Below, one piece after another: positions 27,187-32,310 of a stretch of DNA of 35,484 nt. Where the stretch lies: assembly GCA_902773135.1 (NCBI GenBank), contig CACYDP010000050.1:1-35484 (forward strand), read 5' to 3'. How positions within the stretch are numbered: position 1 is the stretch's first letter; every line of letters begins with the position of its first letter. This stretch comes from an uncultured Ruminococcus sp. GTDB taxonomy: Bacteria; Bacillota; Clostridia; Oscillospirales; Acutalibacteraceae. The position numbers were made by a program, and so were the translations under genes. Below the pieces are notes generated by a model. The model made no database searches and was not told the DNA's origin. It worked only from the letters and a program-made list of their open reading frames with translations.

Positions 27187-28971
27187 TTAACGCATATTGC
27201 CGCCGGGACCGCCCTGCATACCTCCCATACCGCCGCTTACGTTACTGTAATACAAGCCTGATGAGAAGTCCATATCAGCGGTAGATGAACCTGCTGTTAT
27301 GGTATAGGAATTTCCTTCTTTCATATCGGGAGAGGAGTACACGGCACTAGAAAAATCTTTCGTTGTCGTAAATGTGAAATCCGAACCGTCATTGACAGAG
27401 ATCGTTGTTCCGCTTGTTCCTGAAATGCTGACAAGTCCTGAACACTGTGTTCCTGTATCAAAATTGACTGCCATTCCCTCTGAACCTAAGGCGAGTACTG
27501 TGCCGCCTGTGATACTTGCAACACAATCCGAACTGTCACCTTTATCCAATGCACCGTTATCATTGGCAGTGGGACCTTCTACAATCACTGTGCCCCCTGT
27601 CACATATATAGAACCGTTGCTGTCAAGACCATCACCCGATGCATTCAAATACACATATCCGCCGTTAATAGTCAATTTCGCATCGGTTGATTGGCTGCCC
27701 CACGGTGTATCATCGGTGGCAGAGGTATCGGAACCTCCTGCGGTATTAATGCCGTCATCGCTTGATACCAATGAAATATTGCCGTCATTGATCGTAATGT
27801 TCTGTGCCTCCAGAGCCTCATAGGACTGTGTTATTTTAATCTCTCCGCCATTAACAGTCAGATCATTCGATGCGGTGATTCCATCGTCACTCGTTGCAAC
27901 TTCTATTGTGCCCGAATTCACCGTAATTGCCGAGTTGCCGTGAATAGCGTCATCGGCACTTGAAATTGTTACAGACGTATCTGATACGGTAATATTTCCG
28001 TCCGATTTAATACCCTTTTGCGATGTTTCGCTGTTTTTGGAATTGGACGAACCTCCGCCTGATGTAACATTGACTGTTCCTCCGGAAAGGGTCAGATTAC
28101 CTGTAAAGTCGCTGCTGTCATCTCCGGCTATAACCGATATGCCGTCATAGCCCGCATTGACATTCAGTTCGGCCTTTTCAAAATAGAAATAGCTGTTATT
28201 ATCATCGTTTGATAATTTAATGCCGTCATGACCTGAATCGATATTAATTTTGCCTCCGCCCATTCTTACGGAATCATCTGCTTTGATCCCTACGGAGCCG
28301 GAAGTAATACTAATTTCTCCGTCTGTTACTTTAAAATCATTTTTGCATACAACACCATGCAGTTTAGAACTGATGTTCAGCTTTCCGCTTCCGTTGACAG
28401 TCACATCGTCTTTAGCGTAAACAGCACCGTCTGTATCAGCTTTTTCATCAGTATTGTTATAAGTAAGCGTGTTTTCTCCTACACACTGTATAATCAGTTT
28501 ATCACAGTTTTCGACATCAATGCAGGCTGCTGATGCATTAGTCATATTGACATTGTCAAGTATCAGATAAATATTTCCTGACTTGGTACTGTCGTCAACT
28601 ACGATTGAAACGTCTTCCGAAGTGCCGCTGACTTTATAGATACCCTTTGAGGTGATTTTTACCTCACTGCCGGAACTTCCCCTGGTTGTATCGGATATAG
28701 TACCCGAACTGCCTGAAAGTGTTATTTCAGCATCAGCTGTTTCCGACGTAACATCTTTATAATCACCGTCGGCAAACATATCTCCTGATGTTGCGGAAGA
28801 ACTTTCAGTGCCTGAAGCGGAAGACGAATTTGTCGATGAATCAGATGTGTCCGACGATTTCTGAGAGGACGCCGACGAACTGTTTTTTTCTGATGTATTG
28901 TCAGAACACGCTGTTATGGTGCAGACGGACAAAATCAATGCCATCAGAATGACTGCTGTTTTTTTCAACAT
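27187..28971 (-). CDS. Carbohydrate-binding lipoprotein (Cthe_2159-type beta-helix)
   Basis: About 594 residues. A signal peptide ends in the lipobox ITAC, so it is anchored at the cell surface. A Ser/Thr/Asp-rich linker of about 60 residues follows, then a long chain of short beta repeats of the kind GxxxISxGxVxIKADD and NDGIxxSNxxxVxGGxIxI, with DDGI repeated many times. This is the Cthe_2159 family (PF14262), a right-handed beta-helix reported to bind polygalacturonate-like sugars and calcium. It ends in Gly/Met-rich residues. An ATG at 28992 overlaps the previous stop by one base, but the ATG at 28971 has AAAGGA 9 bases upstream and is preferred. It is last of a five-gene operon. Confidence 0.88.
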   Translation of the reverse strand: MLKKTAVILMALILSVCTITACSDNTSEKNSSSASSQKSSDTSDSSTNSSSASGTESSSATSGDMFADGDYKDVTSETADAEITLSGSSGTISDTTRGSSGSEVKITSKGIYKVSGTSEDVSIVVDDSTKSGNIYLILDNVNMTNASAACIDVENCDKLIIQCVGENTLTYNNTDEKADTDGAVYAKDDVTVNGSGKLNISSKLHGVVCKNDFKVTDGEISITSGSVGIKADDSVRMGGGKINIDSGHDGIKLSNDDNNSYFYFEKAELNVNAGYDGISVIAGDDSSDFTGNLTLSGGTVNVTSGGGSSNSKNSETSQKGIKSDGNITVSDTSVTISSADDAIHGNSAITVNSGTIEVATSDDGITASNDLTVNGGEIKITQSYEALEAQNITINDGNISLVSSDDGINTAGGSDTSATDDTPWGSQSTDAKLTINGGYVYLNASGDGLDSNGSIYVTGGTVIVEGPTANDNGALDKGDSSDCVASITGGTVLALGSEGMAVNFDTGTQCSGLVSISGTSGTTISVNDGSDFTFTTTKDFSSAVYSSPDMKEGNSYTITAGSSTADMDFSSGLYYSNVSGGMGGMQGGPGGNMR

Positions 28972-28991
28972 AGTAATTTTTCCTTTCTTCA

Positions 28992-29663
28992 TTACAATTG
29001 ATTCTGAGGTTCGGTATAGGGCAATATGGAAATTTCGAGATTGCCATTCTTGGTCCTGAGTTCGTCAATAAAGGCTTTTTCTTCGCTCGGGTCTTTCATC
29101 TGTATTTTAAATGAAAGTCGGAACATTGAACCCATACCTGTTGTCTTTACGCCGGCATTTTCATAGTGTTTCAGATAATGTTCAAAAGTATCGTCAAATG
29201 CTCCTGAATATTCCAGTGATTCGGGAATGGTAATTTTGAGAAGCCGATCCTGTGACATACTCTTATGTTCAAAAATCGGAAGCATAGAAACTACAATAAA
29301 GAAAACTGCCATACAAAGCAAAATTACTATGCCGTAAGCAATATAACCCATACCAAAAGCAATTCCGGAACCCATAGCAATCAGTATAGCTGCAATTTCG
29401 TCTGCACTTCCCTGAGCACTCCTGAAACGAATCAGACTGAAAGCACCGCCGATGGCAACACCCGCTCCGATATTTCCGTTAACAAAGGTGATCACGGAAG
29501 CCACAACAAAAGGTACAATTGCCACAACGATAAAAAACCTCTTTTTTGACCGTACTTTGAACGACATCAGCCATGCATAAATAAAGCCTGTCACAATTGC
29601 CGCAGCAGCCATCATAAAAAACTGACCCGCAGTAACGGTTGAAGTATAAATTGAATCAAACAT
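28992..29663 (-). CDS. DUF4956 membrane protein
   Basis: A 223-residue protein with four membrane segments in the first 125 residues (about 13-33, 42-62, 65-110 with a short loop, 112-130), then a cytoplasmic domain of about 90 residues with strand-rich regions (KITIPESLEYSGAF, MFRLSFKIQMKDPSEEKAFIDELRTK). The segment GGAFSLIRFRSAQGSADEIAAILIAMGSGIA is highly typical of DUF4956. The function is not known. It is regularly found beside VTC-domain proteins, as here, and may help in making or moving a phosphate polymer or a sugar product at the membrane (inference). It lies 42 bases after the VTC gene and touches the next gene. Confidence 0.9.
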   Translation of the reverse strand: MFDSIYTSTVTAGQFFMMAAAAIVTGFIYAWLMSFKVRSKKRFFIVVAIVPFVVASVITFVNGNIGAGVAIGGAFSLIRFRSAQGSADEIAAILIAMGSGIAFGMGYIAYGIVILLCMAVFFIVVSMLPIFEHKSMSQDRLLKITIPESLEYSGAFDDTFEHYLKHYENAGVKTTGMGSMFRLSFKIQMKDPSEEKAFIDELRTKNGNLEISILPYTEPQNQL

Positions 29664-29705: not shown

Positions 29706-30417
29706 TTAAGGTCTGACTTTGAGCAATTGCTGTCTGTAAGCCTCACCGTATTTGGAAAAACTGCCCTTATATATTTTTCCTTTCGCAAGGATTTCCGAAA
29801 GCCACAAAGGAACAGCCTGCTGTACCTTTACTTCAAGAATCGTATAGCCTTCTTTCAGTAAAGAAGTACCTTCCATAGATTTTGTAAGGTCAAGATCGTC
29901 ATATCTGTAACGGGGATTATGGTCAATCGTCAGCCGCAAATCACCGTCCGGTTCAAAATATGCAATTCTGTCATATATAATCATACATGCCGGAACAAGC
30001 GTCTGATAATAATCTCTGAACGTGGTAATCTCTTTGTTGATCTGACCGCCGGCACAAATATCACCGTTTCCGTCAAAAAATTTCTTGACCAGCGGAATTG
30101 TTGACTGAACACGCCGTTTATAAACAATGCCGTATGCCTTGCGTTTGAGTTCCAGAAAGACAGGGGAAGTTTCTGTGGCAATCCCGTAGGAACGAAGCCG
30201 TATTTTTTCCTTGAAAAGCGGCTTCTCGGCAGATGTTCTGATCAGTCTGTAATTAGGTGTGTCATAATAAAGCGATGCGATAGAAGTAAGACCGAATTTA
30301 TCTATCTTCATATGTCCTTCAACACTTTTTTTTGAAATAAGCAGTCTGTTCAGGATTGAGAATATATTTCATTTCATATCGTTTCATTACAACAATAGGA
30401 TTAGATACAACCGACAT
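29706..30417 (-). pseudogene. VTC-domain polyphosphate polymerase, frameshifted in an A8 run
   Basis: VTC domains polymerise phosphate from ATP at membranes. The frame from ATG 30417 has a perfect GGAGGT site 6 bases upstream and encodes MSVVSNPIVVMKRYEMKYIL, which contains the ExK strand of the fold. It stops at TGA 30319-30321 after 32 residues. The rest of the domain is in another frame from 30311 to 29706 (201 residues, KEKIRLRSYG, FLELKRKAYGIVYKRR, TILEVKVQ). The break is a run of eight A on the coding strand (30326-30333); seven A would give one open frame of 236 residues, the normal family length. It may be true inactivation, transcriptional or ribosomal slippage, phase variation or a read error. 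Reinitiation at ATG 30311 is possible but would lack the ExK strand. Pseudogene status is therefore provisional. Confidence 0.8.
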
Positions 30418-30430
30418 TATTCCACCTCCG

Positions 30431-31657
30431 TTACAAATCTATCTGAAGTGTAAAAAGTCCATTGTTTACTTTTGCACTTACTCTGCCATTGTGAGCCTTG
30501 ACTATATCCTTGACATAGGATAGTCCAAGCCCTGCTGTGCTTGGTATTCGGGCATTTTCCAGCGTTGTAAAACGGTCAAAAATCTGATCAATGCTGCCAT
30601 TCGGCAAATCTGTATCATTTGTCTGACGAATAATGATACGGTCTTTTTGCTTTTTTAGTTCAAATTCCGCATTAGAAACAGCATATTTCAGCGAATTTTC
30701 CGTAAGCTCGTCAAAGATTTTTTTCATTGCTTTTTCATCGCCCTTGATTTTGATATCCGGTTCAATGGTAAAGCTAAGCTGAATCTTTTTCGCTTCAAAT
30801 TCAGATTTTTTGGTATCTATCATGACATTGAATATAGTTGAAATATCCAAGTTAGCTACGGACATATCCTTTTCTTCAAAAACGGACAGTGCCGAAAGAT
30901 GTTTGACCAGCTTTGTCATCTTACGAACCTGCTTATTGATGGAGTTTGTCTGATCGTTTGAACCGTTTACTTTTTCGATCACCTCTGTATTGGCATTAAT
31001 GATTGTCAGAGGCATTTTGAATTCGCTTTCAATCTTGGCAATAAAGCGTTTTTGTTTTCTGTCAGCTTCTTCAAACTGTTTGAAAAGTCTTTTGCCAACA
31101 AACATCAATATAAGAAAACTCAGCAGTAAAAACGCTGCTTCTCCGCATACCGATATAATGAGAATTCGGTACGACGGCAAAAGTTCTCTTCCCTGATCAA
31201 TTACCGTTACATAAGTTTTATCATTTTTTTCATACACACGGTATCTGTATGTAACATTTGTCCAGCCGATGTCTTCATTTTGCAGACTTTTTGCCCATAA
31301 TTCTGCATCAGATTCACTGACAGCGGAAATTCTGTATTCAATTTTTTCCGCATTGCCGCTGCTGTCAAAAGCATAAGTGAAATATCTCAGCGATGCATTC
31401 ATTTCCGGCGAATCGGGTCCCATAGGACCGATTCTGTCACGATTGCCGAAACGATAAAATCTCGTGTCGTCACTTTTTTCTTTCATATCATCTTTGAAAA
31501 AATTTCCGGACGATTTTGAAATCGCTTCCGTAATCCTGTCAGCATCTTCACCTGCCATTGTAAAGTTGATCATATTAATTACAGCCAACAAAACCGTAAG
31601 AAGCACAAACACGGAAATCTCGGCATACAGCACGAATTTTTTTCTTACTTTATTCAT
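30431..31657 (-). CDS. Sensor histidine kinase-like protein lacking the phospho-accepting His
   Basis: A 408-residue membrane protein. Two membrane segments (about 9-30 and 164-187) flank a 130-residue outer sensor region. The dimerisation helix at 200-230 reads FIAKIESEFKMPLTII, where the normal sequence is S-H-E-L/F-K-T-P-L; Ser211 stands in place of His. The ATPase part keeps an N-box with Asn321 (ELTENSLKYA), IFDRF and a G2 box GLGLS at about 377-380, but the DxGxG is not clear (RQTNDTDLPNGSIDQ). It may bind ATP but should not autophosphorylate in the usual way. The ATG has GGTGA 6 bases upstream and overlaps the regulator's end by 8 bases. It lies 13 bases before the VTC gene. Confidence 0.9.
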   Translation of the reverse strand: MNKVRKKFVLYAEISVFVLLTVLLAVINMINFTMAGEDADRITEAISKSSGNFFKDDMKEKSDDTRFYRFGNRDRIGPMGPDSPEMNASLRYFTYAFDSSGNAEKIEYRISAVSESDAELWAKSLQNEDIGWTNVTYRYRVYEKNDKTYVTVIDQGRELLPSYRILIISVCGEAAFLLLSFLILMFVGKRLFKQFEEADRKQKRFIAKIESEFKMPLTIINANTEVIEKVNGSNDQTNSINKQVRKMTKLVKHLSALSVFEEKDMSVANLDISTIFNVMIDTKKSEFEAKKIQLSFTIEPDIKIKGDEKAMKKIFDELTENSLKYAVSNAEFELKKQKDRIIIRQTNDTDLPNGSIDQIFDRFTTLENARIPSTAGLGLSYVKDIVKAHNGRVSAKVNNGLFTLQIDL

Positions 31658-32255
31658 CGTCGATCACCAACCTGTAACCTTTATTTATCAAATATTTAAT
31701 TCTGAGCTTTTGATTCAGTTTTTCGAACTTATTGTTCAGTGCATTGATATAAGGTCCCGCACGCTGATTATCAATGGTTTGATTTGAAATCAGATGTTTG
31801 AATATGTTCAATTCTTCGTTTGTTACTTTTACCTTTTGACAAAGTGTAAACTTTGAAACATCAAATTCCACATTGGCATAAGACAGTGTTTCATCAGACT
31901 TTCGTTTTTGACAGATGTCATCAATACGCTCAGTGAGTTCATAGGGCAAAAACGGAAGACTGAGATAGGAATTTGCCGTGTATTCACTGCAAAGCATAGA
32001 AACATTGATCTTTTTTTCTGAAATGATAATAACTGGAATATTCTCATCATTCGAATATTTTACAATATCCTTACATCTGATACGAGGAATATTTTCATTC
32101 AATATCACAATATCATATCGGCTTTCAGCGATTCCTGTTATGACCTGCGTGCCGTCAAACACTGTTTTAACGGCATTACCCGACAATTCCAGAAGGCTCT
32201 TGAATGACATCAGAAAATCTCTGTCAGGGTCAGCTATCAATATATTCAAATTCAT
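31650..32255 (-). CDS. Response-regulator-like protein lacking the phospho-accepting Asp
   Basis: A 201-residue OmpR-like protein with a receiver domain at 1-115 and a C-terminal winged-helix-like region at about 125-201, ending KLRIKYLINKGYRLVI as in the OmpR family. The acidic pocket has Asp9 and Asp11. Where the acceptor Asp is expected in DIVIL-D there is Asn53 (DIVILNENIP), and the conserved Lys of K-P-F is Leu100 (YLSLPF). Ser79 keeps the Thr/Ser position. It is therefore not expected to take a phosphoryl group. The DNA-binding part is shorter and more divergent than usual. The ATG at 32255 has GAAAGGG about 2-4 bases upstream, a tight spacing; frames upstream to 32291 lack a better site. 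It is the first gene of the operon. Confidence 0.88.
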   Translation of the reverse strand: MNLNILIADPDRDFLMSFKSLLELSGNAVKTVFDGTQVITGIAESRYDIVILNENIPRIRCKDIVKYSNDENIPVIIISEKKINVSMLCSEYTANSYLSLPFLPYELTERIDDICQKRKSDETLSYANVEFDVSKFTLCQKVKVTNEELNIFKHLISNQTIDNQRAGPYINALNNKFEKLNQKLRIKYLINKGYRLVIDDE

Positions 32256-32281: not shown

Positions 32282-32310
32282 AATATACCATATTTTTATC
32301 AAGCGGTCAA
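32282..32310 (-). promoter_or_regulatory. Promoter of the five-gene operon
   Basis: On the minus strand TTGACC (32305-32310) and TATATT (32282-32287) are 17 bp apart, about 27 bases before the regulator start. Confidence 0.7.

Follow-up and report, generated by a model that had tools for sequence, protein, structure and literature searches.

We find that a sensor histidine kinase and the response regulator encoded beside it have both lost residues on which phosphotransfer depends, and that this doubly degenerate pair is conserved in five bacterial families. Judged from the residues at the two sites, phosphotransfer inside the pair looks impossible in all 59 loci that are readable at both. The pair may well be a two-component system turned into a phospho-independent signalling complex, which would act by contact and most likely on the VTC/DUF4956 proteins encoded after it. 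The window, by which we mean the whole stretch of DNA analysed, is 35,484 nucleotides long (uncultured Ruminococcus sp., assembly GCA_902773135.1, contig CACYDP010000050.1, positions 1 to 35,484), and all features described below lie on its minus strand.

Results

Phosphotransfer residues are missing from both partners

The kinase gene (30431..31657, minus strand) encodes two membrane segments, an extracytoplasmic region, and DHp and ATP-binding domains; by eye, about 130 residues lie between the two hydrophobic segments. Its Pfam matches are HATPase_c at 2.1e-11 and HisKA at 0.002, the latter being sub-threshold. The H-box His site is occupied by Ser211 (codon AGC, 31025..31027); His is present there in 22 of 22 canonical kinases and in only 3 of 61 homologous pseudo kinases. 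At the H+4 Thr site, which we take to be the HisKA phosphatase residue, the window has Met215 (31013..31015). All 22 canonical kinases have Thr at this site and none of the 61 pseudo kinases does, making a phosphatase-only kinase unlikely. The window's H-box motif is ESEFKMP, and its canonical relatives mostly carry GHELKTP or similar. The ATP-site residues of a canonical HisKA kinase are kept: the N-box Asn321 (ATP/Mg site, 30695..30697) is Asn in 60 of 60 readable pseudo kinases, and both Gly of the G2 box Gly376-Leu-Gly378 (30524..30532) are found in 59 of 59. By sequence, then, this is a pseudo-histidine kinase, that is, a histidine kinase fold from which at least one kinase function is gone, here with His and the H+4 Thr lost.

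The adjacent regulator gene (31650..32255, minus strand) encodes a receiver domain and a shortened winged helix. Its start is likely the Met at 32255, with a Met at the matching place in many homologues; an upstream ATG at 32291 is also possible. The phospho-acceptor Asp is replaced by Asn (codon AAT, 32097..32099; Asn53, or residue 65 if the protein starts at the upstream ATG), the conserved Lys by Leu (codon CTT, 31956..31958; Leu100, or residue 112 with that earlier start), and the second metal-binding acid, DD2, by Pro (32226..32228), while the first metal-binding acid is retained. Each of these sites is canonical in 17 of 17 canonical regulators; among the pseudo regulators, 23 of 60 have Asp, none of 62 has Lys and 2 of 59 have an acidic residue at DD2. 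Pfam detects Response_reg (2e-10) in a domain with Asn, Leu and Pro in place of a canonical receiver's residues, as in a pseudo-receiver (PsR). The regulator stop and the kinase start overlap by 8 bases (31650..31657), and the same overlap is seen in 50 of 60 homologous loci when the Met nearest to the window's is taken as the start codon.

A preliminary description of this DNA had placed Ser211 in the H-box and Asn53 and Leu100 in the regulator, and had credited the kinase with an N-box, a G2 box, two membrane segments and an outer region. All of this is correct. To its list of losses we add DD2, the H+4 Thr, a winged-helix piece of about 18 residues and two winged-helix arginines.

The losses are shared by homologues from other genomes

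Of 64 genomes in the window's genus, 45, the window's among them, have a close homologue of the regulator at E 1.6e-28 or better, and the other 44 loci were used; many of the 19 genomes that gave no close match are incomplete. One further locus, L037, came from a scan of the genome collection. From 102 genomes of the family with DUF4956, the loci of 40 were taken, and 5 of these 40 carry the pair. A further search, scoring up to 8 candidates per genome, yielded 28 genomes: 11 were used, 3 were already included and 14 were left out (E 6.1e-27 to 7.2e-23, frames of 230-263 aa). The 11 loci come from four other families of the order, so that the pair is present in five. Counts, window included, are for 61 kinases and 62 regulators, L081 showing the regulator only. 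One fragment of the split L079 kinase was excluded from the residue counts and the 61-row tree, both fragments were excluded from the 49-row tree and the conservation ranking, and the broken L105 regulator was counted as two pieces.

The residues at the lost sites vary. At the His site, the 61 pseudo kinases have N (19), K (15), S (11), Q (9), R (3), H (3) and T (1); at the acceptor site, 60 pseudo regulators have D (23), N (19), S (11), G (3), E (3) and Q (1); at the Lys site, all 62 have Leu (32), Phe (21) or Tyr (9). The preliminary description had proposed looking for Ser, Asn and Leu at these sites in homologues. The sites are indeed non-canonical across the clade, but these three residues are no fixed signature, because Asp is still present in many loci and the His site varies. 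Among the 59 loci readable at both sites, 3 have His only, 23 have Asp only, 33 have neither and 0 have both, a zero that is not significant alone since only ~1.2 such loci are expected by chance (hand calculation, p ~0.22). The three bearers of His (L051, L055 and L080) are without Asp, Lys and the H+4 Thr. When the 214 positions of the 49-row set are ordered by conservation, the most conserved first, the His site comes 171st. No other conserved His was found in the DHp; the commonest His column, 389, lies in the catalytic domain (38 of 60).

The loss is not general to the kinases of the window's own genome, as His is kept in 5 of the 5 others that match at E 0.001 or better. Because these keep His while the same sites are non-canonical in homologues from other genomes, misassembly or sequencing error at the His and Asp codons is unlikely. 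Split frames were seen at two other loci, each in a single assembly: the kinase and VTC genes are each split into two frames in L079:743-2552, and the regulator gene is split into two in L105:4860-5554.

Selection and history of the pair

Two quick trees, one with 49 pseudo and 18 canonical rows and one with 61 and 8, both set the pseudo kinases apart from the canonical ones at a branch with SH-aLRT 100; long branches meet in the 61-row tree. In the three closest pairs, whole-gene dN/dS lies between 0.060 and 0.079 for the kinase and between 0.097 and 0.130 for the less conserved regulator. The remaining five pairs had dS above 1 or undefined, and their dN/dS was set aside.

Outside the window's genus, 13 of 16 loci still have the acceptor Asp; within the genus, 10 of the 43 that are readable do. 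Parsimony on the tree gives at least 7 changes in Asp presence and 4 changes in absence of the C-terminal domain, with Asp and the full domain assumed for two of the eight outgroup rows (the canonical kinases of L147 and L156, whose regulators are outside view). His, DD2, Lys and the H+4 Thr have disappeared from nearly every locus whereas many still have Asp, from which we infer a shared and stepwise change and not a single event. Of the coordinated change, as opposed to random decay, that the preliminary description had suggested, the second half stands: one clade, purifying selection and fixed gene order argue that the pair is not decaying at random. The change itself appears to have come in steps.

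The output domain is degenerate or absent

Pfam matched no winged-helix family in the regulator. With hhalign, however, its C-terminus (31653..31892, minus strand) proves to be a homologue of canonical winged helices (96.5%, E 8e-10), with about 18 residues missing between the first helix and the recognition-helix equivalent. This gap is present in 52 of 52 copies bearing the domain, and the spacing between its flanking columns is 20-21 residues versus 39 in canonical regulators. The recognition-helix and wing segments are still there, and the domain is conserved where present. Two arginines, each found in 16 of 17 canonical regulators and presumably contacting DNA, are lost in all 52 pseudo copies: Arg186 is Asn in every one, and wing position 202 is never Arg. 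In 9 loci (L073, L075, L076, L078, L079, L080, L155, L156 and L157) there is no winged helix. The regulator and kinase genes of L076, L078, L079, L080 and L156 still overlap by exactly 8 bases; the remaining four loci have spacings of -14, -4, 2 and 29. The intact winged helix of a DNA-binding regulator is thus not predicted here.

A docking surface may be retained

Seven receiver positions are at least 90% conserved in pseudo regulators and below 50% in canonical ones: D23, R24, D25, Q49, V50, R70 and L100. With loops assigned by hand, 6 of the 7 are on the former active-site face (Fisher p 0.003), which falls to 4 of 7 (p 0.06) when the beta2-alpha2 loop is taken out of the face. We take this face to be where the receiver meets the kinase DHp in complexes of the HK853-RR468 type. 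The best PDB matches of the kinase profile include 4jas and 3dge, which we believe to be such complexes. On the kinase side, H+2 is Phe in 60 of 61 pseudo kinases versus Leu or Ile in canonical ones. These patterns suggest that a docking surface has been kept without phosphotransfer. The case for docking comes from sequence because AlphaFold modelling of the regulator, by itself or together with L037, gave models too poor to use (mean pLDDT 50 and 36).

The pair precedes VTC and DUF4956 genes

The pair is followed in the window by a VTC-domain, polyphosphate-polymerase-like ORF (29706..30311; Pfam VTC 2.2e-35), a DUF4956 membrane protein (28992..29663; Pfam 3.6e-10) and a Cthe_2159-type carbohydrate-binding protein (27187..28992; Pfam 5.6e-65), all on the minus strand. 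Regulator, kinase, VTC and DUF4956 genes are unbroken and in one direction in 57 of 61 loci, DUF4956 coming after VTC in these same 57; the four loci that do not give the full view (L047, L066, L081 and L149) all run off their contigs. Cthe_2159-type genes are downstream in 24 of 61 loci and upstream in 10. The N-terminus of the window's Cthe_2159-type protein weakly matches an SP_0198 lipoprotein model (3.6e-06, below the curated cut-off). A defence system was considered and set aside, the four operon proteins giving no PADLOC match at 0.001.

In this assembly a run of eight A puts the N-terminus of the window's VTC ORF (30311-30417) out of frame. VTC ORFs are in frame at that place in 56 of 57 cases, the exception being the window's own, and the A-runs of the 56 are at most 7 long. 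Phase variation, a mutation and an assembly error are all candidate causes of the break.

The pseudo pair is probably not obligatory for VTC-DUF4956, because four loci (L093-L096) have VTC-DUF4956, with DUF4956 66-72% identical, and no pseudo pair in the flanks fetched. Of the 40 family loci fetched, 16 have a canonical two-component system beside VTC/DUF4956 and no pseudo pair in the stretch covered. The pseudo pair shares its cluster with a canonical kinase at 9 of the 16 loci from outside the window's genus (L087, L091, L147, L148, L150, L151, L153, L155 and L156, of which L150 shows only an end of that kinase), and 7 of these 9 are among the 11 loci of other families. At such loci the pseudo pair is therefore an addition to a real system. 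The in-cluster canonical kinase is often upstream of the Cthe_2159-type gene. A different canonical kinase, with the motif DISHDLKTP, lies directly upstream of the pseudo pair in L047, L050 and L057, and its regulator is visible in 2 of the three.

Discussion

A contact-signalling complex could be built from these parts as follows. By sequence, the kinase has lost the residues for autophosphorylation and for HisKA-type phosphatase activity, its ATP site looks intact and its outer region is conserved; the regulator is without metal-binding, Lys and often Asp residues, its DNA-binding domain shortened or absent. The pseudo-receiver would dock on the DHp of a pseudo-kinase dimer via the former phosphotransfer face, and the complex would change shape with an outside signal and ATP occupancy. 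Its output would be protein contact, most likely controlling the VTC/DUF4956 membrane machinery and not transcription. Among the options raised in the preliminary description, direct contact and ATP binding fit these features best. We tentatively extend this to a pair that has left phosphorelay and gene control altogether: it could be an ATP-binding, permanently docked membrane switch, its two members being subunits that regulate the VTC/DUF4956 machinery. On this view the regulator has shed its DNA-binding domain more than once with the gene pairing kept.

The leading alternative resembles RocA: the pseudo kinase would modulate a real system by joining that system's kinase in mixed dimers or complexes, in the way that RocA acts on CovS, and the pseudo regulator would be a decoy. 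The RocA precedent (the available part of PMC7028121) makes this conceivable, as do the canonical kinases that share the cluster at the nine outside-genus loci, the other-type kinase beside 3 of 44 genus loci, and two canonical kinases in the window's own genome that are 29-31% identical to the pseudo kinase. However, 41 of the 44 genus loci have no canonical system in the fetched stretch (many being cut by contig ends), VTC-DUF4956 follows wherever the contig reaches, and the H+4 phosphatase residue is lost too; we judge this reading unlikely, if worth keeping in mind. DNA binding by the unphosphorylated regulator was another of the preliminary suggestions; the regulator would then control the operon in the manner of known atypical response regulators. 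This reading could draw on the homology of the C-terminal domain to winged helices, on its conservation where present and on the remaining recognition-helix and wing segments, but it becomes improbable because the domain is shortened, lacks the two arginines in every copy and is absent in 9 loci.

It is very doubtful that phosphorylation persists in residual form, through another His or through the Asp retained in some species. Asp does survive in 23 of 60 regulators and His in 3 of 61 kinases, but DD2 and Lys are lost almost everywhere, the DHp offers no conserved His, and no locus combines His with Asp, even if that zero carries little weight by itself. Pseudogenes in decay would account for the loss of both catalytic sites, for a regulator less conserved than the kinase and for the split kinase frame in one assembly (L079). 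We give this reading hardly any credence, as the selection and synteny data speak strongly against it: whole-gene dN/dS is 0.06-0.13 in the three closest pairs, the pair is spread over five families, and order and overlap are fixed.

A phospho-independent contact complex, the reading we favour, would give a lead on the control of bacterial VTC/DUF4956 systems. Our literature search on VTC with DUF4956, mostly outside subscription journals, found no report. Gram-positive pel loci resemble the window in having a polyphosphate-polymerase gene beside DUF4956: in the available parts of two accounts, sets of VTC, DUF4956 and CotH genes accompany pel loci in streptococci and clostridia, and deletion in S. 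intermedius of SIR_1592, a four-TM gene adjoining a polyphosphate-polymerase-domain gene, or of the CotH-like gene altered Pel level and aggregation (PMC7112168, PMC12345266). The same parts report no effect of the polymerase-domain gene SIR_1593 and mention no pseudo kinase/regulator pair (PMC7112168, PMC12345266). SIR_1592 is probably a DUF4956 protein, and a surface-polymer role for the window's operon is only a lead.

Degenerate members of two-component systems are known. His is lacking from 0.9% of HisKA domains and Asp from 2.0% of receivers, and the mechanisms that activate pseudo-receivers are still a mystery according to the available portion of a 2025 review (PMC12632262). Searched by title and abstract start, the literature, mostly outside subscription journals, gave no adjacent pair degenerate on both sides. 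In the present case the two halves are degenerate, adjacent and mostly overlapped in five families, so that a partner and a probable target are in hand and phospho-independent signalling between kinase and regulator is directly testable.

The canonical OmpR-type systems beside VTC-DUF4956 in the same family have a homologous kinase and regulator at a similar locus; unlike the pair, they keep His, the H+4 Thr, Asp, Lys and a full-length winged helix. Going by the source texts available, RocA, DivL and the pseudokinase version of ChrS share with the window's kinase a histidine-kinase architecture without kinase function and signalling by contact. RocA acts on an otherwise active system (PMC7028121), whereas here the adjacent partner regulator is degenerate as well. 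FrzS, NblR, GlnR and CmrT likewise have, as described in the portion available, a receiver fold without the full phosphorylation quintet (PMC12632262); they differ from the present regulator, which has a degenerate DNA-binding domain or none and whose adjacent kinase is also dead. Each kind, pseudo-receiver and pseudo-histidine kinase, is known singly, and what seems new here is their occurrence side by side as a conserved pair with both members degenerate.
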